Source of the DNA: Methanothrix sp.
Lineage (GTDB): Archaea > Halobacteriota > Methanosarcinia > Methanotrichales > Methanotrichaceae
Reading direction: 5' to 3'
DNA length: 49,541 nucleotides
NCBI GenBank assembly: GCA_026394565.1
Contig: JAPKYA010000110.1
Coordinates: forward strand, 1-49,541
Shown: one piece after another, positions 9,104 to 23,493 of the stretch
Position numbering within the stretch: the stretch's first letter is position 1
Layout: each line of letters begins with the position of its first letter
Made by a program: the position numbers and the translations under genes
The notes under the pieces: model-generated
The model's input: only the letters and a program-made list of their open reading frames with translations
Database searches by the model: none
What the model was told of the DNA's origin: nothing

Positions 9104-9339
9104 GAGCGATTTTGTGCATGGGATAGACGGAAGAACCTACCATTGGGCTAAACCAGGGGTTTACGATTTTCACCACAAAGGCACAAAGCTAAAAAAGAAC
9201 GCATAAAGACGAATTGGGTCAATTTATGGATCAGTTTCGCCCCGCTCAGAATATGTTTATCTCTAATGATGCACACCTCTCTTTGGCTTTGCATGAGCGA
9301 AGATCTGCCGCGCAAAGCTCTCAGGCGGAGGCCAGGCAT

Positions 9340-11869
9340 TTGGCAGAAGATGTTTCTCAGACGGAAGGGCGTTTTCAGGAGTTCTTTAGAACAGCCACAT
9401 ATGATGATAGTAGTCCGGAAGGGCACAAACCTTATCCTTTTCAGACGAGGCTGGCCACCGCAAAGGAGCTGCCGGAGCTGATCGACATTCCCACGGGTCT
9501 CGGCAAGACCGATGCCGTGGTCCTGGCGTGGCTGTGGCACAGGCGCTTCGCGGGCGAGGAGACACGCGCTGCCACGCCCCGCCGCCTGGTGTACTGCCTG
9601 CCCATGCGAACGCTGGTGGAGCAGACACGGGATAAAGCGAAGATGTGGCTGAAAAACCTGGGCCTCTTTTCAGAAAAACCGGGCGATGACAAGCTTGCGG
9701 ATTCTGGCATTTGGAGCAAGTGGACGGAAAATGCCGACCAGGATAAAACTCGCATCTGCGTCACTGTGCTCATGGGAGGCGAGGACAGAGATGAATGGGA
9801 CCTTTACCCTGAGAGGGACGCCATCATCATCGGCACGCAGGATATGCTGCTCTCCCGGGCGCTCAACCGCGGCTACGGCATGAGCCGGTATAGATGGCCG
9901 GTGCACTTCGGGCTGCTCAACAACGACTGCCTGTGGGTGATGGACGAGGTGCAGTTGATGGGGGTGGGCGTGGAGACGTCTGCGCAGATGCAAGCATTTT
10001 GCAGCGCGTTTGGGACCATCGGCACGGTCCAATACGTCTGGATGAGTGCCACTCTTGGCGAGAAGCAGCTTGCGACAGTGGATCATCCGATTCCGGTTGG
10101 CGGCCTGTCCAGTATTTCCCTTGAACCGGATGAAAAGACAATTCCTGCGGTTTCAAAGAAGTTCGAAGCGCGCAAACTATTGATAAAGGCGAGCCTGATG
10201 CTGGACAAGGAGAACGAGAAGAATTATCCAAGAGAGTTTGCCGCCCTCCTCGACTCGGTGCACAAAAAGGGGACTTTAACGCTTGCTGTAGTAAACCGGG
10301 TCAGTCGCGCTCAAAAGATCTTCGAAGAGCTTCTCAAGAATGGGCGGACGAAGGATGATACTGCGGTCCTTCATTCTCGATTCCGAGAAGGCGATCGACA
10401 AGCTCGGATGATGCTGCTTGACGAGATGATGGACCGAATCATAGTAGCGACCCAAGTCGTTGAAGCAGGAGTGGATGTGTCTGCCCACACACTCGTCACC
10501 GAGCTTGCTCCCTGGCCGTCTCTTGTTCAAAGGTTTGGGCGATGCAACAGAAGAGGCGAGTACGATGATGCGTCTGTCTTGTGGATCGATTTCGAATCGA
10601 CTGACAGATCGAGCGATTTCGCTCTTCCATATGACTCTTCAACGCTTGGAGTTGCAAGATCCCTTATCGAAGAGCTCGAAGATGCTGGACCTAAAGTTCT
10701 GGGCAAAGCGTCGGAGGGCTATCATGAGCCAGACGTCATAAGAGCTGTCGTGCGCAAGAAGGACTTTCTGGAGCTGTTCGATACAACCCCGGATCTCACA
10801 GGCAACGACCTCGATGTCTCCCGGTTCATCAGAGATGGCGAGGACAAGGACGTTTCGGTCTATTGGAGAGAATACCCTGAAAGCGGACCATCCGAGTCGT
10901 TCCAGCGTCCAGCGCGAGGAGAACTCTGTTCCGTCTCCATCAGCGAGATAACGAAGTACCTAAAGAAGTATGACGGCTGGATCTGGGATGCCTTTGATGG
11001 ATCCTGGAAAAATGTGAAAGTCTGCCGTCCTGGTCAGGTTATCCTTCTGCATCCCAAGAAAGGGGGCTACTCGTCGATCAACGGATGGGTCGGTGCAGGA
11101 GATGCTGATGGAAAAGCAGTCGAAGTCATTCCGTCCGGGAAGGATGGAAGGAACCATTCCATCGAAGACGAGGCCGAGTCACAAATGGGCGCGTGGATCA
11201 ATCTCAAGGATCATCTCAATGATGTCTCGCGGGAAGCCATCGAGTTGTCAAGACACCTTGCGATCATCGGAGACAATGTCGACGCAATTGCGACTGCGGC
11301 TCGCTGGCATGACGTCGGGAAGCTCCACGATGCTTTCCAGAACATGCTGCTGACCGGACAGCCTGATGAAGAGTCTCTGAGGGCAGCGGGGCCGTGGGCC
11401 AAGTCAAAGAACGGAGGCGGGCGTCCGAGTTATTGGATTCAATCAGATGACAAAATCGAGGAGAGGAGCTACTTCCGTCACGAGCTGGCTTCAGCCCTTT
11501 CATGGATTCAGACAGAAGGAAACAGCAGAAAAGATGCTGATCTGATCGCTTTCCTGATTGCAGGGCATCATGGAAAGATCAGAATGTCAATCAGGTCGCT
11601 CCCTGGTGAGCATGAACCACAGGATGGCCGTCTCTTTGCAAGAGGGATCTGGCAGGGTGACAGGCTGAAGCCGTATGCTGGAGTCTTCAATGGAGATGTC
11701 GAGCTTGATTTATCGCTCATGCGGATGGGAGAGGGCAGTTGGCTAGAGAGGATGCTGAGGCTTCGGGACGATCCGGCGATGGGTCCACAGCGTCTTGCGT
11801 TTCTTGAAAGCATCCTGAGGATTTCAGACTGGAGGGCTTCGAAGAAGGAGACGAAGGAAGTGAGGACGA

Positions 11870-11886
<17 letters not shown>
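9340..11886 (+). CDS. cas3: Cas3 helicase with C-terminal HD nuclease, subtype I-G
   Basis: 848 aa from the TTG at 9340, which has GGAGG eight bases upstream and begins just before FQEFFRTATYD. The open frame extends to a TTG at 9214, but those 42 extra residues are not family-like and have no ribosome-binding site. Residues counted from 9214: Walker A DIPTGLGKT at 91-99; motif II DEVQ at 244-247; motif III SATL near 277; ATQVVEAGVDV and QRFGRCNRRGE as motifs V and VI; HD pair at 699-700 in ARWHDVGKLH; a second histidine motif AGHHGK. The HD domain at the C-terminus, rather than the N-terminus, is characteristic of this subtype. It unwinds and degrades target DNA after Cascade binding. Confidence 0.95.
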
Positions 11887-15072
<3,186 letters not shown>

Positions 15073-15076
15073 TAGG

Positions 15077-16708
15077 ATGCTTGCATTCGAAATCCGGTTC
15101 CCTGCTGGCAGGTATCATGCCACCCCCTGGGACCGTCAGGTGAATGAGGGGGTGGTGGAGTGGCCGCCTTCTCCCTGGAGGGTCTTGCGAGCTTTGATCT
15201 CTACCTGGTACCACAAGGCTCAGGGAGATGTTGACGAGGCGACGGCTCGGAGCCTAATTGAACATCTGAGCTGTAGCCTTCCAAGGTTTGAGCTGCCAGT
15301 AGCGACTTTAGGGCACACCCGTCACTACATGCCTCTCTTTTCCAGCAAGACTACAAAGGTCTTCGATGCATTTGCCTCAATTGAACATGACAAGAGGCTT
15401 CTGGTAATATGGCAGGAAGTGGATCTGCAGGAACACGAAAGAACTGCATTGGAGATACTCCTTGCAAGGATGGGCTATCTCGGCCGGGCGGAGTCCTGGA
15501 TAGAGGCCCAGATCATCGATTATCAGGAAACTAAAGGGAATTGTCGCCCGCTCAGCGGGAACGAGTCCATTCCTGAGGATTGCGAAGGCGTTCGCACTCT
15601 GGCCTCCATTGCGCCTGCGTCCTATCTTTCCTGGAGGGCGACTGCGCTCTCTGAGCAGAAGGAGCGCAGGCTTGTAGAGATCCGGACCAAGGCAAAAGAA
15701 AAAAGGAAACCTGAGAACAAGGTAAAGTTGGGCAAAAAAGATCTGGAGAAGATCGAGCAGAACCTGCCTGCCGATCTCTTCGCAGCTCTTCACGCCGACA
15801 CAGCCGACCTGAAGGGCGCTGGATGGAGCCAGCCGCCCGGTAGCATCTGGGTCATGTATCTGCGCAGAAAGGATGCATTTGATATCAAGCCCGTGGCGAC
15901 TGGCGGAATGCGGCGTAACCTAGATGGTCAGCCAACCGTAGCTCGCTTTGCTGTGGCCAGCCAGGTCCCACCAAGGCTTACTGATGCAATCAGCTTTGCC
16001 GAGAGAATTCATGTAGCTCTGGTCAGCCGCTCCAATGGTTCATCTGTCTTTACCGGTTGCGACGAATCAGGCAAACCCCTCGATGGACACAGGCACGCAT
16101 TCATTCTCTGTGAGTCAAGCTTGGGCTTAGGCAAAGGCCAGAGAGGCGAGATTACTCATATCGTAGTCCACGCTCCTATGGGATTCGAGCTGCAGGATCG
16201 ACAAGCACTAGACTGCCTGACCCGCGTCTGGGGCCACGGAGGGCATGATGTTCGGCTCATCCTCCTCGGAGTGGGACAACCGGAAGACTTCGCCGGGCTT
16301 GATACGGCCAAAGGAGCCTGTCCGATCCTGGCAGAGTCTCAAAGATGGGTCTCCAGGACGCCATTTGTATCGACCAGACATCCCAAGGCCACAAAGACCG
16401 GAGTTCCCAAGCTTGATGAGAATGGTTTGCAGATCGGAAGTCCGGAACACGAACTCAGAAGGCTGCTAATGCTCGCAGGATTTCCGTCTCCATCTTCTGT
16501 CGAAGCTGTTCCTTCCACAGATCTGGCCGGCCATGAGACCAGATGGCTCAGCTTTAGACGGCAGAGGAATCATGGAGAAGGGAGGAAAGTTGCCAGCGGG
16601 CTAGGCTACGGATTTCGCGTTAAATTTCCAGACATGGTCAGAGGCCCCATCGCCCTCGGCTACGCCGCCCATTTCGGCCTCGGCCTCTTCGTCCCGGAAT
16701 CGCCCTGA
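15077..16708 (+). CDS. csb2: Csb2 (Cas5-Cas6 fusion, GSU0054 family)
   Basis: 543 aa. It starts LAFEIRFPAGRYHATPWDR followed by EGVVEWPPSPWRVLRALI, the Csb2 hallmark. In subtype I-G this protein combines the Cas5 function (5' handle binding) with a C-terminal Cas6-like crRNA endonuclease, and no separate cas6 exists in the locus. The C-terminal half has conserved GHRHAFIL and RRQRNHGEGR segments; which histidine is catalytic cannot be decided by eye. A charged linker RTKAKEKRKPENKVKLGKK sits near residue 200. It starts 4 bases after csb1 and is the last gene of the effector operon. Confidence 0.92.
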   Translation: MLAFEIRFPAGRYHATPWDRQVNEGVVEWPPSPWRVLRALISTWYHKAQGDVDEATARSLIEHLSCSLPRFELPVATLGHTRHYMPLFSSKTTKVFDAFASIEHDKRLLVIWQEVDLQEHERTALEILLARMGYLGRAESWIEAQIIDYQETKGNCRPLSGNESIPEDCEGVRTLASIAPASYLSWRATALSEQKERRLVEIRTKAKEKRKPENKVKLGKKDLEKIEQNLPADLFAALHADTADLKGAGWSQPPGSIWVMYLRRKDAFDIKPVATGGMRRNLDGQPTVARFAVASQVPPRLTDAISFAERIHVALVSRSNGSSVFTGCDESGKPLDGHRHAFILCESSLGLGKGQRGEITHIVVHAPMGFELQDRQALDCLTRVWGHGGHDVRLILLGVGQPEDFAGLDTAKGACPILAESQRWVSRTPFVSTRHPKATKTGVPKLDENGLQIGSPEHELRRLLMLAGFPSPSSVEAVPSTDLAGHETRWLSFRRQRNHGEGRKVASGLGYGFRVKFPDMVRGPIALGYAAHFGLGLFVPESP

Positions 16709-16889: not shown

Positions 16890-17135
16890 ATGGACAACCA
16901 AAAGCTGCTTCAGGAATTGCAGTCAAACCCGAAGAAGATTCGGTTCGCGAGGATCTGCATTATTGCGGAAGCATTTGGCTTTCAGACTCGAAGGGGGACT
17001 GGCAGCCACAGGATATATTATCGAGATGGGATAAGGGAGATCCTGAACTTTCAGAATGAAGGTGGATGGGCAAAGGCTTATCAGGTCAAACAGTTTATAA
17101 AAATCGTTGAAAGATATGACCTTCTGGAGGATTGA
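16890..17135 (+). CDS. hicA: HicA-family toxin
   Basis: 81 aa. The double-stranded-RNA-binding-like HicA fold is recognisable from the segment TGSHRIYYRDG, which carries the catalytic histidine, followed by the EGGWAKAYQVKQFIKIVERY helix. HicA toxins cut mRNA and are held in check by HicB. Compared with standard HicA (about 60-80 aa) the length is normal and no frame break is seen. The stop overlaps the hicB start, giving toxin-first order as usual for hicAB. It lies between GC-rich repeat copies 1 and 2 inside the CRISPR locus. Toxin-antitoxin genes beside CRISPR arrays are common and may stabilise the locus. Confidence 0.85.
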   Translation: MDNQKLLQELQSNPKKIRFARICIIAEAFGFQTRRGTGSHRIYYRDGIREILNFQNEGGWAKAYQVKQFIKIVERYDLLED

Positions 17136-17347
17136 TGTACGCAATTGAGATATTCTTCAGCGAAGAGGATGAGGGTTTCATCGCCACAGTCCCAGAGTTG
17201 CCCGGCTGCTCGGCCTTTGGAGAAACCGAAGAGCGAGCATTAAAAGAGGTTAAAATTGCCATGCAGCTTTGGCTGGAAACAGCAAAGGAAATCGGCAGAG
17301 ACATTCCGCTCCCGCAGAAACGCAGCCTTGTAGCCGGTACGGCTTGA
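17135..17347 (+). CDS. hicB: HicB-family antitoxin
   Basis: About 70 aa from the ATG at 17135, with GGAGG four bases upstream; a TTG at 17132 is also open. The pattern FFSEEDEGFIATVPELPGCSAFGET is the classical HicB degraded RNase-H fold. There is no C-terminal helix-turn-helix or ribbon-helix-helix extension, so this is the short form, which neutralises HicA by binding but may not regulate transcription. Overlap with hicA by one base indicates coupled translation. Confidence 0.87.
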   Translation: MYAIEIFFSEEDEGFIATVPELPGCSAFGETEERALKEVKIAMQLWLETAKEIGRDIPLPQKRSLVAGTA

Positions 17348-17420
17348 TGGCAGTTTTCCAAATTATTTTGCCACTAAGAACTTCTCGTTTTCTTCAATGA
17401 TCTTTCAGGACCGCTGCAAG

Positions 17421-17503
17421 ACCGTCCGGGGCCCTCCTGCCCGCCCAGGCGTCCGGGCCCGCGCGCACATGAGCCCGCGGGAACGCGGCCGGGCAGGGAC
17501 CGA
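17421..17503. repeat. GC-rich dispersed repeat, copy 2
   Basis: ACCGTCCGGGGCCCTCC (shared with copy 1) followed by GCCCGCCCAGGCG and GGGCCCGCGCGC (both shared with copy 3), then a TGAGCCC block. It separates hicAB from the UPF0175 gene. Confidence 0.6.
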
Positions 17504-17554
17504 TATGGAAGAGAAGTGATGCCAATTTTTTTATATCATAATCGCATACGTTTT

Positions 17555-17830
17555 ATGGAAATGGTTCTAGCGGAAGTAGACATGCCGGGATCTATCTTGG
17601 CCCTGATCAAAGTTGATCGTGACCAGTTAGCCCCCTTCATAAAGCGCTCCCTGGCAGTTGAGCTCTATCGGGAAGGCAAACTCTCTTTAGGCAAGGCAGC
17701 GGAGCTGGCCGGGACGAAGAGCAAGTGGGAGATGCTCATGCTCCTCAGCGAGAGGGGCGTGCCGATAGATTATACCTCGGAAGATGCCGAAGATGATCTT
17801 CAGACTCTTAGAGAAGTGCTGGGCCGATGA
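17555..17830 (+). CDS. UPF0175 family antitoxin
   Basis: 91 aa from the ATG at 17555; an ATG at 17561 is also possible, while the frame back to 17516 adds an unlikely hydrophobic start. The core KRSLAVELYREGKLSLGKAAELAGTKSKWEML is the UPF0175 helical DNA-binding-like signature, and the tail GVPIDYTSEDAEDDLQTL is also typical. UPF0175 genes usually sit directly before a PIN-domain toxin of the DUF3368 type; here that partner starts in ATGA overlap but is broken. A TATA-like TTTTATATCATAA about 25 bases before the ATG suggests a leaderless transcript. Confidence 0.83.
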   Translation: MEMVLAEVDMPGSILALIKVDRDQLAPFIKRSLAVELYREGKLSLGKAAELAGTKSKWEMLMLLSERGVPIDYTSEDAEDDLQTLREVLGR

Positions 17831-17988
17831 AAGTTGTATGCAACTCTACGCCGCTAATTGCGCTGGCTAAGATCAATCAGCTTAGAGTACGAAAAAATTT
17901 TATCACTCAGCACCCGCCCGCCCAGGCGGACGGGCGGGCCCGCGCGCGCGTGACCCCGATGGAACGCCGTCTGGCCGGGATCGAATAG
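17827..17988 (+). pseudogene. Truncated PIN-domain (DUF3368-type) toxin
   Basis: The frame opens in ATGA overlap with the UPF0175 stop and reads MKVVCNSTPLIALAKINQL, the exact kind of N-terminus of DUF3368/PIN toxins (VVSNSTPLIAL). After about 20 residues it runs into the GC-rich repeat (PPAQADGRARARV) and stops after 53 codons. A PIN ribonuclease needs about 130-160 residues with further acidic residues, all absent. I read this as an antitoxin whose toxin was lost by insertion of, or deletion up to, the repeat. Confidence 0.75.
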
Positions 17989-17990
17989 GC
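17908..17990. repeat. GC-rich dispersed repeat, copy 3
   Basis: Contains CCCGCCCGCCCAGGCGG then ACGGGCGGGCCCGCGCGCG and TGACCCCG. It shares GCCCGCCCAGGCG and GGGCCCGCGCGC with copy 2. CCCGCCCG and CGGGCGGG can pair as an 8-base stem. It lies at the point where the PIN toxin is cut. A fourth, more diverged copy is at about 20110-20157. Confidence 0.6.
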
Positions 17991-18259
17991 CTCTGCAAAG
18001 CACGATTCTTTTTTTCAGCAGAGTCTTCCTTCGCATCAATGGGCCGAAGCTCCTGCAATTTAAGCGAAAGATAATAATAGCGAGAGGTTTTTCGAGAGGT
18101 TATGTGGTTCCGGGAGGGCCGGGGTGCGCTCGAAACGCCTCCAAACAGCGAAAACTCCCGCGAAGACAGACGCACTTTGCAAAAAACTCCACGAGAGTTG
18201 AGGAACCTCTCGAAAACGGCCAATTTTTCGATATCTACAGAGGGCGAAAAATGGCCGCC
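17991..18259 (+). promoter_or_regulatory. Putative CRISPR leader
   Basis: 270 bases without a credible gene directly before the first intact repeat. It is on the leader side because the last repeat of the array (18696) is the decayed one and the repeats end in ATTGAAGC, the usual 3' handle side. It contains CGAGAGGTT twice (18081-18089 and 18093-18101) and a 13-base perfect inverted repeat, TTTTCGAGAGGTT at 18089-18101 against AACCTCTCGAAAA at 18204-18216. Promoter and integration signals would be expected here. Confidence 0.6.
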
Positions 18260-18731
18260 ATTTCCACGGCTGAAAAGTCGTGGCCCCATTGAAGCACGAC
18301 CTCTGTGAGCTGGGTGATGGAGTTTACGAGATTTCCACGGCTGAAAAGTCGTGGCCCCATTGAAGCTTCCTGAATCAGTACGATCTCACGGCTGATGAGT
18401 TCATTTCCACGGCTGAAAAGTCGTGGCCCCATTGAAGCCCATTTCATTAGGCCTCAGCAGAACGCCTTCCAGCATCAGCATTTCCACGGCTGAAAAGTCG
18501 TGGCCCCATTGAAGCGGAAACTGGTTGACCCATTGCTTCAGCGAGGGCCTCATTTCCACGGCTGAAAAGTCGTGGCCCCATTGAAGCTCCATGCTAGTCC
18601 AGTCGCCGGATTAGTCGTCCACGATTTCCACGGCTGAAAAGTCGTGGCCCCATTGAAGCCAGCAATTGAACGGCCATCTGTCGGACTTCGGCCTGATTTC
18701 CACGGCTGAAAAGTCGTGGCCCCCATTGAAC
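18260..18731 (+). CRISPR. Subtype I-G CRISPR array, 7 repeats, 6 spacers
   Basis: The 36-base repeat starts ATTTCCACGGCTGAAAAG and ends GTGGCCCCATTGAAGC. Repeats start at 18260, 18331, 18403, 18480, 18552, 18624 and 18696; the first six are identical and the seventh has an extra C and ends GAACG. Spacers are 35, 36, 41, 36, 36 and 36 bases, all different. CCACGGCT and AGTCGTGG form an 8-base stem (one G-U) around a GAAA loop, leaving an 8-base 5' handle AUUGAAGC after processing, as expected for a Cas6-type nuclease. Orientation is the plus strand. I did not find protospacers in this window. Confidence 0.97.
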
Positions 18732-18792
18732 GATAATCTTTTGATAGTCCATCCGGAAAATTAAAAAACATGTAAATCTCTATTTAATTGCC

Positions 18793-19950
18793 ATGCGTGT
18801 AGGATTTATCCATAAGGCTTGTTTAGCTCTATTCATTCTATTTGTTTTGGGAAAAGTAACTTCGGGGGAGGACTTTAGCGAGCTTTTTGAAGAAGATAAC
18901 GATTTGTTTAAACGACATATAATGCCTGGAGACCCATTCGATCTGCTAGAATATGATATCACGCATTATCATATGAAGTACCCGTCTCAACAAATACCTT
19001 TAAATTACTATGGAAAAAATATCACATTTCTATCGCTTTCTTTTGAAGAACGATACAAATTATTTCATACAAATTCTTTGATAAATTCAAGTACTACTGC
19101 ACCACATAACTCTTCAATTGAGAGTGCTAAAGCAAGATTAAATAAGATAAAAGAAAATTTTGAAGATCAAGAACAGGCTAGGAAAGAACTTGAAAGCAAG
19201 CTAGATTCACATTTTTATTATAATATAAGTAATACATATAATGGCTTAGAGAATCTTATATGGAACTTTTTGCCTTCATGGACATACAGAGAGGACTTCT
19301 TTGATTGCAGTGAAATGGCTGCCTACGTAGATCATAAATTGGAATTATATGGATTCGACGCAAAAATTTGCGTTTCTCACAATTTTGGAGGAACTGGCAA
19401 TGGACATGCTTGGATTGCTGTCGATCTTCCACCAGGAATTTTATCGGACGAGATGGAGCAGGTTTATGCCACGGGTCCTAAATCAAGGAATTTAAGGCGA
19501 TATTTCATCGAGCCTACAATGATTCCTTCTACATATATCTGGCAATCCGGGCCTTCATGCCATCGAGAAGAGTTCTTATCTGGAGAACTCTCCTGTGACC
19601 AGTTGTTTATCCCCGATAAGCAACTGATCATCATACCTGAAGACGGTCTCTATTTTATTTGTACTAATAATTTTGAGATCTGTGGTGAACTTTATAGCAA
19701 AAATGTTGAATATTATAAAAATTATGAAGCAATTTATGAGGACATTTACCAAGCATGTGCTAATGAGTCCGTCGAGACCTTCAATTGGTGGGCAACATTA
19801 GAAACGTCCGAGTTGGAGAGCACGGAATTCCTAAATGAAACACGCTCAGATTACCTCTTGAGGAAAGGTCAGGAGCTTTTCGGTCCTGGTGGAAGCTGGA
19901 GACCAGATCCAGCTAATTTCCGTTCGCCTATCATAATATCACCAAGCTAG
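18793..19950 (+). CDS. Secreted transglutaminase-like cysteine protein, low G+C
   Basis: 385 aa with an N-terminal signal peptide (hydrophobic CLALFILFVLGKV). A Cys-His-acid set is visible: Cys172 in FDCSEMAAYV, His205 in GNGHAWIAVD and Glu240 in FIEPTM, spaced as in transglutaminase/papain-like folds. Seven or more NxS/T sequons suit an exported archaeal glycoprotein. Residues 110-150 (KARLNKIKENFEDQEQARKELESK) look like a coiled coil. Base composition is far more A+T-rich than the cas genes on both sides, suggesting separate acquisition. It lies between the array and the detached repeats. A role in CRISPR immunity is not supported by anything in the sequence; it may be cargo. Confidence 0.65.
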   Translation: MRVGFIHKACLALFILFVLGKVTSGEDFSELFEEDNDLFKRHIMPGDPFDLLEYDITHYHMKYPSQQIPLNYYGKNITFLSLSFEERYKLFHTNSLINSSTTAPHNSSIESAKARLNKIKENFEDQEQARKELESKLDSHFYYNISNTYNGLENLIWNFLPSWTYREDFFDCSEMAAYVDHKLELYGFDAKICVSHNFGGTGNGHAWIAVDLPPGILSDEMEQVYATGPKSRNLRRYFIEPTMIPSTYIWQSGPSCHREEFLSGELSCDQLFIPDKQLIIIPEDGLYFICTNNFEICGELYSKNVEYYKNYEAIYEDIYQACANESVETFNWWATLETSELESTEFLNETRSDYLLRKGQELFGPGGSWRPDPANFRSPIIISPS

Positions 19951-20241
19951 TGCTCTGGAACGAGTGTGTTGGATAAGGCAAAGTCCTCCTGCAACGCCTA
20001 AGTAGGCCATCTTGAGCGCTCGTATTCTGTCCATGTTACAATTCTGCATCCATGGAACTTTACGAGTCAGCAAGCATGCTTTTCAGGATTATCACCCTGC
20101 ATCCCTGCCGCACCTTTGCCCCAGCCCAGGCGAATCCGCGCGTGACGCCCGCCCGGCCATCTGGTTTCATGTCTGAAACGCATAGCTCAATTGAAACATG
20201 CTAAGAAAATCTTATATGTTATTAGATACCTATCTAAAATC
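19951..20241. other. Intergenic stretch with diverged GC-rich repeat and small palindromes
   Basis: No convincing gene. At about 20110-20157 there is a diverged copy of the GC-rich repeat (CCCAGGCGAATCCGCGCGTGACG). GTTTCA-N4-TGAAAC at 20164-20179 is a perfect hairpin, and TAGATACCTATCTA at 20223-20236 has TAGATA/TATCTA arms, a possible operator in front of the broken HTH gene. Confidence 0.45.
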
Positions 20242-20352
20242 ATGGCTCAAAAACGAAGCAAAGATCAACTCATAGCTCAAATCCTCGCCTTCATGCCAAG
20301 GGGACGGAGCTGGCAAGACCAGGATTGTATATCAAGTGGGCCTTAATTTGTT
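20242..20352 (+). pseudogene. Broken winged-HTH regulator (HTH_45 type)
   Basis: The ATG at 20242 reads MAQKRSKDQLIAQIL, the N-terminus of archaeal HTH_45 winged-helix regulators. The frame then shifts by one base; the next frame reads CQGDGAGKTRIVYQVGLNL, which is the expected continuation (family pattern GxxKTRIMYxANLN). The sequence ends exactly where a CRISPR repeat begins (20350). About two thirds of the protein is missing. A TATA-like CTTATATGTTATTAG lies just upstream. Confidence 0.7.
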
Positions 20353-20461
20353 TCCACGGCTGAAAAGTCGTGGCCCCATTGAAGCATTGCTATTCACCTC
20401 CTTACGAAGAATTGCAGGTCATGACATTTCCACGGCTGAAAATCCGTGGCCCCAGCGGCTC
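20350..20461 (+). CRISPR. Detached CRISPR mini-array: one near-intact and one decayed repeat
   Basis: The repeat at 20350-20385 differs from the consensus only in its first base (G for A). After a 40-base spacer a second repeat starts at 20426 (ATTTCCACGGCTGAAAATCC, then GTGGCCCCA) and loses identity after CCCCA. It lies about 1.6 kb beyond the main array. Confidence 0.85.
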
Positions 20462-20499
20462 CGAAAGTCTTTTATTTTCGCATCATCTGTTTAGCGGTG

Positions 20500-20700
20500 A
20501 TGACTGCGAAGACTTCTAGAGAAATGCCGAAAGAACACGGACGTGATGTGCCACGTGGAGCGAGAACTGTGGCCGGGGTGGCCGGGGGTGCAGTATTCGG
20601 CTTTGCAGTCGGTGGCCCGGCTGGTGCTATGTTCGGCGGCATGGCGGGGCTGATAATTGGCGCCTCCTCTGACGTAGGAGCCTACATGGATAAATGGTGA
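20500..20700 (+). CDS. Small glycine-zipper membrane protein
   Basis: 66 aa from the ATG at 20500; the frame is open back into the decayed CRISPR repeat at 20446, which is unlikely coding. The C-terminal half VAGGAVFGFAVGGPAGAMFGGMAGLIIGA is a Gly-x3-Gly glycine zipper with one or two membrane helices; the first third is basic and polar. Such small proteins occur as bacteriocin-like peptides, phage proteins and membrane-stress proteins, so no function is assigned. It sits between two degenerate repeat loci. A 30-codon open frame starting at TTG 20708 (GAFFVVLVLPLAW, one membrane segment) follows after 7 bases. Confidence 0.5.
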   Translation: MTAKTSREMPKEHGRDVPRGARTVAGVAGGAVFGFAVGGPAGAMFGGMAGLIIGASSDVGAYMDKW

Positions 20701-20827
20701 CCTGCTATTGCCGGATGTGCCAATACCTCTATCTGGGGCATTCTTTGTTGTGCTCGTTCTACCTCTTGCCTGGAGATATATTACCTGTCGCTGGCAATAG
20801 TCAGGAATAAAACGATCCTTTTGGATT

Positions 20828-20936
20828 ATTTCCTCGACTGAAAAGTCGTGGCCTAACTGAAGCGTTATCCTTAAATTTTGATCCGTACAAAATAGCCATT
20901 ATTTCCACGGCTAAAAAGTCGCAGCACCAATGAAGC
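20828..20936 (+). CRISPR. Second detached pair of degenerate CRISPR repeats
   Basis: Repeat-like units at 20828-20863 (ATTTCCTCGACTGAAAAGTC, then GTGGCCTAACTGAAGC) and 20901-20936 (ATTTCCACGGCTAAAAAGTC, then GCAGCACCAATGAAGC) are each 36 bases long and separated by a 37-base spacer. They carry 5 to 7 changes from the consensus. The second ends 10 bases before the start of the small secreted gene at 20947. Confidence 0.8.
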
Positions 20937-20946
20937 GAGGAATGGT

Positions 20947-21327
20947 ATGAAATTAACAGCAATGGTCTTAGCACTAAGCGTGATGTTCATGTTGAACACA
21001 CTGCCGGTAATCGCACAAACCAACGACTTTGCGGGAAATTGGAATGTTGTACTTGGCAATCAAAACATGTACATGACGATGGGCAATGATCTCCGAGCAG
21101 TAATCTACAACAATGCAAATGATCTAATTCGAACCGCCGACATTAACGGAGAACTGGTCAGCAACACACATCTTATGGGAACATGGATAGCATGGCCGGA
21201 CATCACAGACCAGGGAACCGTGCATATGTACCTATCGGATGCGGACAGTTTTTCAGGAGAGCTGACTTGGGAAGAGGACGGATTGGTAGTAACATTCAGT
21301 GGAACCAGAGTACCAAAACCAAAGTAA
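20947..21327 (+). CDS. Small secreted beta-rich protein between degenerate CRISPR repeats
   Basis: 126 aa. Signal peptide of about 24 residues (LTAMVLALSVMFMLNTLPVIA, cut after QA or AQT). The mature part alternates polar and hydrophobic residues with FAGNWNVVLGNQ at its start and GTWIAWP, GELTWEEDGLVVTFSGT near the end. This resembles lipocalin-like or META-like small barrels that begin with an F-x-G-x-W motif, but I cannot name a family. The ATG is preceded by GAGGAATGGT. Its upstream boundary is a degenerate CRISPR repeat, and a further repeat-like sequence begins at its stop codon. Confidence 0.6.
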   Translation: MKLTAMVLALSVMFMLNTLPVIAQTNDFAGNWNVVLGNQNMYMTMGNDLRAVIYNNANDLIRTADINGELVSNTHLMGTWIAWPDITDQGTVHMYLSDADSFSGELTWEEDGLVVTFSGTRVPKPK

Positions 21328-21353
21328 TTTTTCCACGGCAAAAAAACGTAGCA
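21325..21353 (+). repeat. Strongly decayed CRISPR-repeat-like sequence
   Basis: TTTTTCCACGGCAAAAAAAC, then GTAGCACC resembles the repeat's CCACGGCTGAAAAGTCGTGGC core with several changes, followed by a run of T. It could also act as a transcription stop for the small secreted gene. Confidence 0.4.
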
Positions 21354-21399
21354 CCTTTTTTTCAAATGCAGGTTTAGGTATACTCATTTTAGAATTTTG

Positions 21400-21432
21400 A
21401 TGTGTCATAAAAAATTAAATATCTTTATTAAT
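21400..21432 (+). promoter_or_regulatory. AT-rich promoter region of cas4-cas1
   Basis: AAAAATTAAATATCTTTATT gives the only TATA-like sequence before the adaptation genes, about 35-60 bases before the GTG at 21463. The adaptation module therefore likely has its own promoter, separate from the effector operon. Confidence 0.4.
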
Positions 21433-21462
21433 AATGACTATTACTGCTACTACGGTGAGTGA

Positions 21463-23184
21463 GTGATTCCTAAAGCCGAAGAGCCCAACAGAGACTCGCC
21501 TGAGCTGATTCCCGCCCGTATGCTCAACGAGTTCGCCTACTGCCCTCGCCTCTGCTATATCGAGTGGGTGCAGGGAGAATTCTCGGACAGCGCGGATACG
21601 GTGGATGGCCGATTCCAGCACAGGCGCGTGGATACCGACTCCGGCAAAGCCTCCGAGGAGTTCGAAACATTTCATGCTCGATCCGTCTACCTTTCCGGCA
21701 GCTCATCCGGCATCACCTGTAGAATCGACCTTCTGGAGGGCGTTGGTGGCCGGGTCACTCCGGTGGACTACAAACGAGGAGAAGCGCCTGATATCCAGGA
21801 GGGCGCCTACGAGCCGGAAAGAGTTCAGCTCTGTGCCCAGGGGCTGGTGCTGAGGGAGAACGGCTTTGTCTGCGATGAGGGAATCGCCTACTTTGTTAAA
21901 TCGAAGAAGAGAGTGCTTATTCCGTTTGATGACATCCTGGTGGCCAGAACCAAGGAACTCATCGCTGCGCTCAGGATCGCGGCGGATCTGGGAGAGATGC
22001 CGCCTCCCTTGAAGCAAAGCCCCAAGTGCAACCGCTGCTCTTTGGCCGGCATCTGCCTGCCCGATGAGATCACCCTCCTCAAAGAGATGGAAGCTGATGA
22101 TGCAGAAGCGGGCGAGGAAGTAGGAACAGAAGAGGAAAAGAAAGAGGCTCCGGCAGGCCGAATCAGAAGGCTGCTTCCCTCTCGGGACGACGCCATACCA
22201 GTCTACGTAGTCGGCCGGGGCAATACCGTGAGGAAGAAAGAAGAACGCCTGGAAATCTGGTCGCGAGAAGGCAAAGTCAGTGAGCCCAAGCTAAGAGAGA
22301 TATCTCAGCTCTCGCTCTACGGAGGCGTGGAGATAACCACCCCGGCCATGGTCGAGCTGATGCAAAGAGGAGTGCCCGTCATCCACTACACGCACGGAGG
22401 CTGGTTCCAGGGAATCTGCCTGGGAACGACCCATAAAAACGTTGAGCTGAGGATACGCCAGTTTCAGTGTGCAATGGATCCGAAACGATCAATGCTTCTG
22501 GCTCGAAAGGCCGTAGCTGGCAAGATCAAAAACTGCAGGACGCTCATGCGCCGAAACGATTCGACGCGCTGCACAAGCTCCCTCAGCCTCCTGGCAAAAC
22601 TGGCCGCAGAGGCGGAAGAGGCATTAAACAGCCAGAGCCTCCTGGGCATCGAGGGCGCGGCTGCAGAATGCTATTTTTCCCGGTTTGCCAGCCTTTTGAA
22701 AGAAGGCGGCAAGGACTTCTCTTTTACGGATCGAAACCGCAGACCGCCAAAAGACCCTGTAAATGCAGTACTTTCTTATCTCTACGGCATCCTTGTCAAA
22801 GACCTGTTTGTCACTCTTCTCGCGGTGGGCTTCGATCCGTATCTTGGATTTTATCACCGACCCAGATACGGCAGGCCCGCTCTGGCCCTGGATATGATGG
22901 AAGAGTTCCGCCCCCTCATTGCCGATTCCGTAGCCATAAACCTGTTTAACAATGAGGAGCTTTCCAAGAAGGACTTCATCAAGACTCGTGCCGGAGTTTC
23001 CATGACCTCCGGCGGCAAGAAGGCAGTAGTAGTAGGCTATGAACGCCGCATGGAGACGGAGATCGTCCATCCCGTCTTCGGCTACAAAGTCAGCTACCGA
23101 AGGGTGCTGGAAGTGCAGGCCCGCCTCCTGGCGCGAGCCATCTCCGGCGAGATCGGGGAGTATCCACCTTTCTGCACCAGGTAA
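21463..23184 (+). CDS. cas4-cas1: Cas4-Cas1 fusion, subtype I-G adaptation protein
   Basis: 573 aa, starting at GTG. Cas4 part (residues 1-205): Cys27 or Cys31 in AYCPRLCYIEW plus Cys189, Cys192 and Cys198 bind an Fe-S cluster, and VDYKRG (Asp102, Lys104) is the RecB-type nuclease motif. An acidic linker EEVGTEEEKKEAP follows. Cas1 part: PVYVVGRG start, SLYGGVEITTPAM, catalytic Glu397 in GIEGAAAE, His465 in FYHRPRYGRP and the ALDMMEEFRP acidic motif. The Cas4-Cas1 fusion is a hallmark of this subtype; Cas4 trims prespacers and Cas1 integrates them. All catalytic residues are present, so adaptation looks intact. Confidence 0.95.
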   Translation: MIPKAEEPNRDSPELIPARMLNEFAYCPRLCYIEWVQGEFSDSADTVDGRFQHRRVDTDSGKASEEFETFHARSVYLSGSSSGITCRIDLLEGVGGRVTPVDYKRGEAPDIQEGAYEPERVQLCAQGLVLRENGFVCDEGIAYFVKSKKRVLIPFDDILVARTKELIAALRIAADLGEMPPPLKQSPKCNRCSLAGICLPDEITLLKEMEADDAEAGEEVGTEEEKKEAPAGRIRRLLPSRDDAIPVYVVGRGNTVRKKEERLEIWSREGKVSEPKLREISQLSLYGGVEITTPAMVELMQRGVPVIHYTHGGWFQGICLGTTHKNVELRIRQFQCAMDPKRSMLLARKAVAGKIKNCRTLMRRNDSTRCTSSLSLLAKLAAEAEEALNSQSLLGIEGAAAECYFSRFASLLKEGGKDFSFTDRNRRPPKDPVNAVLSYLYGILVKDLFVTLLAVGFDPYLGFYHRPRYGRPALALDMMEEFRPLIADSVAINLFNNEELSKKDFIKTRAGVSMTSGGKKAVVVGYERRMETEIVHPVFGYKVSYRRVLEVQARLLARAISGEIGEYPPFCTR

Positions 23185-23196
23185 CGAGGCGGCGGC

Positions 23197-23493
23197 ATGG
23201 GCGAACTGAAATGCTACGTAGTCAGCTACGATATAATGGACCCAAAGCGCCTGCATCAGGTGCATAAAATCATGAAGGGCTTCGGAGACCCGATACATTA
23301 CTCAGTCTTCCGGTGCAATCTCACCGAAAAGGGAAAAGTAGAGCTTATCGCGGCGCTCACCGAGATCATCAAACACAACGAGGACCGCATAATGATCGTG
23401 GACCTGGGACCCCTGGACGGCAGAGTGGAAGAAAGGATAGAATTCCTGGGCGTGCACCCCACCCAAACGGAAAGCGAGGCGGTAGTAGTCTGA
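23197..23493 (+). CDS. cas2: Cas2
   Basis: 98 aa. The first strand KCYVVSYDIMDPKRLHQVHKIM is the Cas2 ferredoxin-fold start with the conserved aspartate (YDI), followed by GDPIHYSVFRCNLTE and DRIMIVDLGPLDGR. Cas2 bridges two Cas1 dimers in the spacer-integration complex. It starts 12 bases after cas4-cas1 and ends the CRISPR-Cas locus on this side. Confidence 0.95.
   Translation: MGELKCYVVSYDIMDPKRLHQVHKIMKGFGDPIHYSVFRCNLTEKGKVELIAALTEIIKHNEDRIMIVDLGPLDGRVEERIEFLGVHPTQTESEAVVV

Follow-up and report, generated by a model that had tools for sequence, protein, structure and literature searches.

Arrays of clustered regularly interspaced short palindromic repeats (CRISPR) are usually seen as regular stores of fragments of 30-40 nucleotides (nt), and insertion sequences can split them, as IS6110 does in the direct repeat (DR) locus of Mycobacterium tuberculosis. 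For Sulfolobus, isolated cases of a gene-sized insert between two repeats have been described. One is the 'pseudo-spacer' SiL-E1 in CRISPR_2 of Sulfolobus islandicus LAL14/1, which is about 2 kb long and contains five open reading frames (ORFs). It lies flush between complete repeats with repeat-spacer units beyond it, and illegitimate recombination was thought unlikely by its authors (PMC3718332). Moreover, CRISPR locus F of S. solfataricus contains a plasmid-like insert of 899 bp between two repeats, and the review that describes it stresses that mobile elements rarely interrupt such arrays (PMC4390879). For recurring gene blocks in type I-G arrays, no report was found in the open-licence literature, as judged by search listings. 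Here, we describe such blocks in a type I-G CRISPR-Cas locus on a stretch of 49,541 nt from Methanothrix sp. (hereafter the window) and in its near kin. With a probability of roughly 0.6, we propose that the old, leader-distal part of one type I-G array received gene blocks at or near repeat boundaries, most likely by repeat-directed joining, and that the remaining repeats decay.

SiL-E1 and the window both have gene-sized inserts between repeats. However, in the available description SiL-E1 is one case, is conjugative-plasmid-like throughout and belongs to an array of family I that is associated with subtype I-A (PMC3718332), whereas the present case concerns type I-G, three blocks per array, chromosomal-looking and toxin-antitoxin cargo, decayed repeats and recurrence in a family. 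The locus F insert, as far as it is described there, is a single event in a leaderless locus (PMC4390879). In the window, cas3g, cas8g, cas7g, csb2, the array, three gene blocks, cas4/1 and cas2 follow each other in one direction. The array lies between the effector genes and cas4/1-cas2, and in the proposed reading gene-sized DNA has come to separate the repeats of its older portion, away from the leader.

The array consists of seven 36-nt repeats (18260-18731, forward strand), the seventh of which carries one additional C and is damaged at its 3' end. Four detached repeats follow on the same strand. The copy at 20350-20385 agrees in 35/36 positions and has G as its first base; a 40-nt spacer (20386-20425) separates it from the copy at 20426-20461, which agrees in 29/36 positions without gaps, is repeat-like to about nt 29 and then has a cargo-like 3' end. 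The copies at 20828-20863 and 20901-20936, both with 31/36, enclose a 37-nt spacer (20864-20900). Gapped scores for the four copies are 34, 22, 26 and 26 (of 36), far above the best of 12 shuffled repeats across the 49.5-kb window (11) and the minus-strand maximum (10). Hence, the detached repeats and their pairing around spacers of 40 and 37 nt, both reported in an initial annotation of this DNA, are borne out. The same annotation had placed a faint repeat near 21325. A copy at 21328-21363 is indeed significant locally: in the 138-nt interval between the last cargo gene and cas4/1 it was equalled by 0/400 shuffled repeats and 0/400 shuffled intervals (p 0.0025 each). Across the window, however, its score of 11 is indistinguishable from noise, and the unrelated positions 20162 and 40941 score 12 and 14. 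The detached repeats look like decaying array remains.

Three blocks break up the leader-distal part of the array, all on the forward strand, and each is bounded by repeats on both sides, although the flanking repeats are partly decayed and the last one is faint. Block 1 (18732-20349) contains the gene of a 385-amino acid (aa) secreted-looking protein (18793-19950), followed by a frame-shifted remnant of a helix-turn-helix (HTH) gene (about 20241-20349). Block 2 (20462-20827) contains a glycine-zipper gene, which starts at 20446 or 20500 and ends at 20700, together with the remnant of a membrane-protein gene, which is complete in the related genome G020 (genomes are numbered G, their contigs C and the compared loci L). 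Block 3 (20937-21327) is made up of the gene of a 126-aa secreted-looking protein (20947-21327), whose stop codon touches the faint repeat. The gene content between the repeats is as described earlier, but the names given to the genes are less firm. The labels 'secreted' and 'transglutaminase-like' for the 385-aa protein come from reading the sequence by eye; this protein had one sub-threshold Pfam match to another family, none in NCBIfam and 0 hits in a PDB sequence search, and AlphaFold, given this one sequence, produced a poor model with a mean predicted local distance difference test (pLDDT) value of 36.5. The glycine-zipper gene has sub-threshold family matches only, and the HTH remnant is named after its likeness to a gene of G008, with Pfam finding nothing in its 51-aa frame. 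Searches for cargo covered genus and family genomes. A DNA search of 26 genus genomes for a donor of block 1 yielded, besides the window, one HTH stretch of 70% identity, in G008, and only partial relatives of the 385-aa protein were present in 50 family genomes. In G020, the genus DNA and family protein searches detected neither block 1 nor block 3. None of the three cargo proteins of the window was matched by PADLOC. The locus resembles arrays split by insertion sequences in being interrupted by other DNA; unlike in those, the borders are repeats and no transposase family is among the Pfam and NCBIfam matches of the three window cargo proteins, element ends not having been searched for.

The same slot is occupied differently in relatives. 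G020 (L068), whose cas4/1 is 92% identical to that of the window, has 18 unbroken repeat units, one of them internally damaged, and this run ends directly at the glycine-zipper gene, whereas in the window a block of 1.6 kb lies within the array and further repeats follow beyond that gene. This comparison supports the earlier suggestion that one long array was broken up by insertions. One further solitary repeat lies downstream of cas2 in G020. In G011 (L093), 23 repeats abut the cas4/1 promoter region and cargo is absent. The slot of L070 and L071 contains an acylphosphatase-like gene and then one or two detached repeats, and that of L072 a YafQ-type toxin and a partner with a faint repeat behind. 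In L079, where the array follows cas4/1-cas2, a 132-aa gene precedes a detached repeat pair, and in L076 an MNT/HepT pair lies between two leader-array units. Leader-repeat-genes-repeat arrangements occur in G023 (L167) and G021 (L168), and the two G023 repeats are perfect and identical. Moreover, G001 (L169) has PemK-like, UPF0175 and PIN-like genes between two repeats, in G033 (L172) a leader-repeat is followed by MNT/HEPN, and in G021:C52 (L176) a PemK pair precedes a repeat. A test for a faint repeat on the left side of L215 gave none. Similar layouts in several independently assembled genomes, together with a window sequence that contains no Ns, make it hardly credible that the layout is an assembly artefact, even if repeats assemble poorly and the genome is a metagenome-assembled genome (MAG) of 124 contigs.

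Taken together, Methanothrix and its near kin show ten gene blocks with repeats or sub-arrays on either side, four of them of toxin-antitoxin type. The ten are the three of the window (block 2, shared with L068, counted once), the acylphosphatase block of L070 and L071 (counted once) and those of L072, L076, L079, L167, L168 and L169. All 10/10 are co-oriented with the repeats (two-sided p 0.002), the orientation being based on Pfam in five blocks and on ORF calls in five, and L167 also has ORFs on the opposite strand. Three one-sided sites were scored, of which L172 and L176 are co-oriented and L171 is opposed. An array was detectable at 55/80 cas4/1 loci and none at 25/80. Gene-sized gaps on the same strand, meaning at least 400 nt and not accounted for by cas genes alone, as sorted by eye, were present in 5/12 family arrays (the window, which is counted here, L070, L071, L076 and L079) as compared to 2/44 other type I-G arrays (L109 and L138; Fisher p 0.003). 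With the threshold for the other arrays lowered to at least 150 nt, their share becomes 5/44 (p 0.03). Within these counts, L068 and L079 come from one genome and so do L070 and L078, and all gap and block counts are limited by contig ends.

Another site of G019, on a 17.5-kb contig of other genes (G019:C117), likewise carries the acylphosphatase-like gene followed by a degenerate 3' repeat, and the homology of this copy to L070 stops at the 3' end of the repeat. The gene family is large (29 matches in G019), and therefore the mobility of gene plus repeat rests on a single example. The family, which has a coiled-coil-like tail, is strongly expanded in G019 and its relatives; weak PADLOC coiled-coil matches of the gene were disregarded. 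As to L076, a pre-array stretch is duplicated in this Methanotrichaceae genome (L076:6652-6849 and 9321-9503), with an array after each copy, and a third array of a different repeat type follows cas2. A similar HIT-family gene is located near single or paired repeats in L169 (G001:C81), L171 (G006:C251) and L173 (G035:C23), with Pfam run for L173 only, which suggests a shared orphan array site. Furthermore, the DNA just after four terminal or solitary repeats (L176:8147, L179 (reverse) 2299, L184:5633 and L230 (reverse) 11504) is alike and contains an inverted repeat (GAGCCC...GGGCTC); it is possibly a conserved array trailer or terminator.

The detached repeats of the window weaken with distance from the leader. 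Folding predicts a hairpin of -12.5 kcal/mol for both the array repeat and the 20350 copy, and -9.6, -8.9, -4.5 and -1.0 kcal/mol for the next four. Two detached repeats of relatives were folded, with -5.2 kcal/mol for that of L070 and -11.2 kcal/mol for that of L071. A test of 13 repeats with the window-type consensus, whether detached, solitary or terminal (the 21328 copy and other consensus types being left out), showed no selection on the stems, as 88/104 pairs are kept and 89.3 are expected from random substitutions (P 0.72). The falling hairpin energies and the stems, which are kept no better than by chance, point to decay rather than to a kept RNA function, and the detached repeats are best read as leftovers of an old array part that probably decay without visible constraint. 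It is very unlikely that they serve as RNA processing sites, at which a Cas5/6-like cleavage would free the cargo and cas4/1 mRNAs from a long transcript. Such a role would fit the common orientation of array, cargo and cas genes and the full hairpin of the 20350 copy, but in the later copies the hairpin weakens to -4.5 and -1.0 kcal/mol, and it is not conserved.

Degenerate repeats around one spacer, in a cas region and with a small toxin adjacent, are also described for CreTA (PMC10097628), and within the cas region of the window, too, a single spacer is enclosed by two repeat-like copies. The degenerate pairs beside small genes might encode guides, CreTA-like or otherwise regulatory, by which these genes would be controlled. 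This is highly improbable, since both detached spacers match their neighbourhood no better than shuffles do, the stems are not kept and the best pairs are located behind unrelated cargo. In a comparison of the detached spacers with window positions 17000-21500 on both strands, no guide signal was obtained (p 0.55-0.97; 60 mononucleotide shuffles per spacer, with the six array spacers as controls), and the lowest value came from the control array spacer S1 (p 0.03). Unlike in CreTA, no guide-target match was found in the window, and its cargo consists of protein genes between repeats. Single repeats away from arrays are likewise known as viral solitary repeat units and Racr RNAs (PMC10651486, in the part accessible). 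In contrast, the repeats described here are mostly on archaeal MAG contigs, some with a leader, and the 24-nt core of the window repeat matched 0 viral contigs. An exact search of viral contigs with 30-nt cores, confined to the two detached spacers, gave 0 matches each. A related degenerate repeat pattern occurs in five IMG/VR records (L230-L234), four with one match and L233 with an array; L230 seems to be identical with L234. The records may represent solitary repeat units of viruses or else DNA of a host.

Wherever a gene cut off at a detached repeat had an uncut homolog at hand, it ends 0-1 nt before the 5' edge of that repeat (3/3). In G009:C13, a conserved gene (SBP-like by eye; its DNA is 97% identical in G000:C76 and 92% in G021:C120) stops at most 1 nt from the repeat. 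In G009:C254, a cas4 gene, 85-87% identical to those of L079 and L083, is flush with the repeat, its last base directly preceding it, and no shared homology is evident there. The HTH remnant of the window ends exactly at the first base of the 20350 repeat, where the G008 homolog, itself frame-shifted, reads on. Under a uniform spacer remnant of 0-37 nt, three edges within 0-1 nt have a p of about 1.5e-4. Since the cut genes end so close to the repeat in all three testable cases, the sequence suggests that the joining was directed by repeats. A flush repeat-gene edge in G017 (L170) was considered and not counted; the conserved part of that gene begins near a TATA-like stretch there. In G009:C13, a CRISPR repeat (L174:9968-10003) is also read through in frame within a 341-aa ORF, the halves of which match different genes elsewhere.

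What the sequences show is the layout, its recurrence in the family with several blocks beside type I-G adaptation genes, the common orientation of the ten blocks with their repeats, the decay, and exact gene-repeat edges in three cases; the order of events, the joining mechanism and any benefit of the cargo are inferred. The blocks most likely entered at or near repeat boundaries by repeat-directed joining rather than at random places, either by repeat-repeat exchange, which could move gene-repeat units, or by Cas4/1-Cas2 linking a long DNA end to a repeat edge. For the first route, recombination between direct repeats has been inferred for Sulfolobus arrays in the available part of a review (PMC4390879). 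For the second, PMC10504553 describes half-site intermediates of type I-G Cas4/1-Cas2 with one prespacer strand attached to the repeat on its leader side, and such joining would give edges of DNA followed by a repeat like those observed. Because the slot belongs to a co-directional stretch, cargo of matching orientation, which several times consists of toxin-antitoxin genes, may then be tolerated or kept there.

The main rival is plain illegitimate recombination into an unused array end, i.e. a dispensable old end that tolerates random insertions and deletions, with the repeats uninvolved in the joining. We consider this unlikely, yet several observations fit it and weigh against joining at repeats. 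The G008 homolog carries ATTTCCAC in common with the repeat start, and microhomology could therefore explain the HTH-repeat edge. The left junction of block 2 lies inside the 20426 repeat, at a GGCCC(C)A run shared with a repeat-free copy of the block in G007 (89% identical DNA), and five bases (ATTTC) are common to the window and L068 at its right edge. The detached repeats decay, as neutral wear would have it, although the L071 repeat keeps its strong hairpin, which sits poorly with decay. A test for a faint repeat to the right of the glycine-zipper cargo in G020 detected none, nor was a repeat detectable on the 5' side of the acylphosphatase copy in G019:C117. At L171, the neighbouring gene opposes the repeat; the spacers at these loci measure 35-41 nt, far from the kb-long DNA that would have been joined; and the relatives are mostly fragmented MAGs. 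Random insertion does not readily account for the three cut genes that all stop at a repeat edge, two of them without clear microhomology, for the leader-repeat-genes-repeat units with two perfect repeats in G023, for an acylphosphatase gene that travels with a repeat or for the excess of gaps in one family. On balance, we therefore prefer repeat-directed joining into the old array part. The idea that the repeats act as landing or recombination sites draws circumstantial support from the ten blocks and the three edges, and is weakened by the one window junction inside a repeat. The same genes in place without repeats were not encountered in the genomes searched; the sole repeat-free cargo copy, that of G007, is in an unrelated place elsewhere.

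The window is contig C34 of an incomplete Methanothrix MAG (G000; 2.29 Mb, 124 contigs, 79% complete), whose nearest named relatives are Methanothrix (Methanosaeta) MAGs. All six type I-G genes (cas3g, cas8g, cas7g, csb2, the cas4/1 fusion and cas2) are above the cut-off by Pfam or NCBIfam, and the array of 36-nt repeats with a leader expected of this type is present. On the forward strand, the effector genes cas3g, cas8g/csx17, cas7g/csb1 and csb2 occupy 9214-16708, a leader resembling those of other family loci 18173-18259, and cas4/1 (21463-23184) and cas2 (23197-23493) together 21463-23493. Upstream of the leader, a UPF0175 gene is flanked by two copies of a G+C-rich 72-nt sequence (17432-17503 and 17913-17984), which are 74% alike. 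The same genome contains a second cas4/1, 63% identical (G000:C9:13890-15497), and a wrecked type I-G locus (G000:C16, L226), in which a cas4 fragment leads into what by eye resembles the end of cas2, with a repeat behind it.

In this methanogenic archaeon and in several relatives, whole genes lie where short virus fragments normally go, and worn array pieces lie between genes. Array finders may split or overlook loci of such layout. A bolder proposal, which we regard as speculative and rather doubtful, is that the Methanothrix type I-G Cas4/1-Cas2 integrase attaches the ends of long chromosomal DNA to repeats at their 5' edges and thereby captures whole genes into arrays, with rearrangements leaving solitary repeats such as those at which cas4 and the conserved G009 gene are cut. 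If true, these arrays would be gene-capture platforms that gather genes for toxin-antitoxin systems and secreted proteins in a common orientation, comparable to integron cassettes but built on CRISPR. A family with repeated gene-length inserts, some of which have exact edges to a repeat, lets one ask whether a CRISPR integrase captures genes or rearranges chromosomes, and whether the toxin-antitoxin cargo helps to maintain the CRISPR locus.

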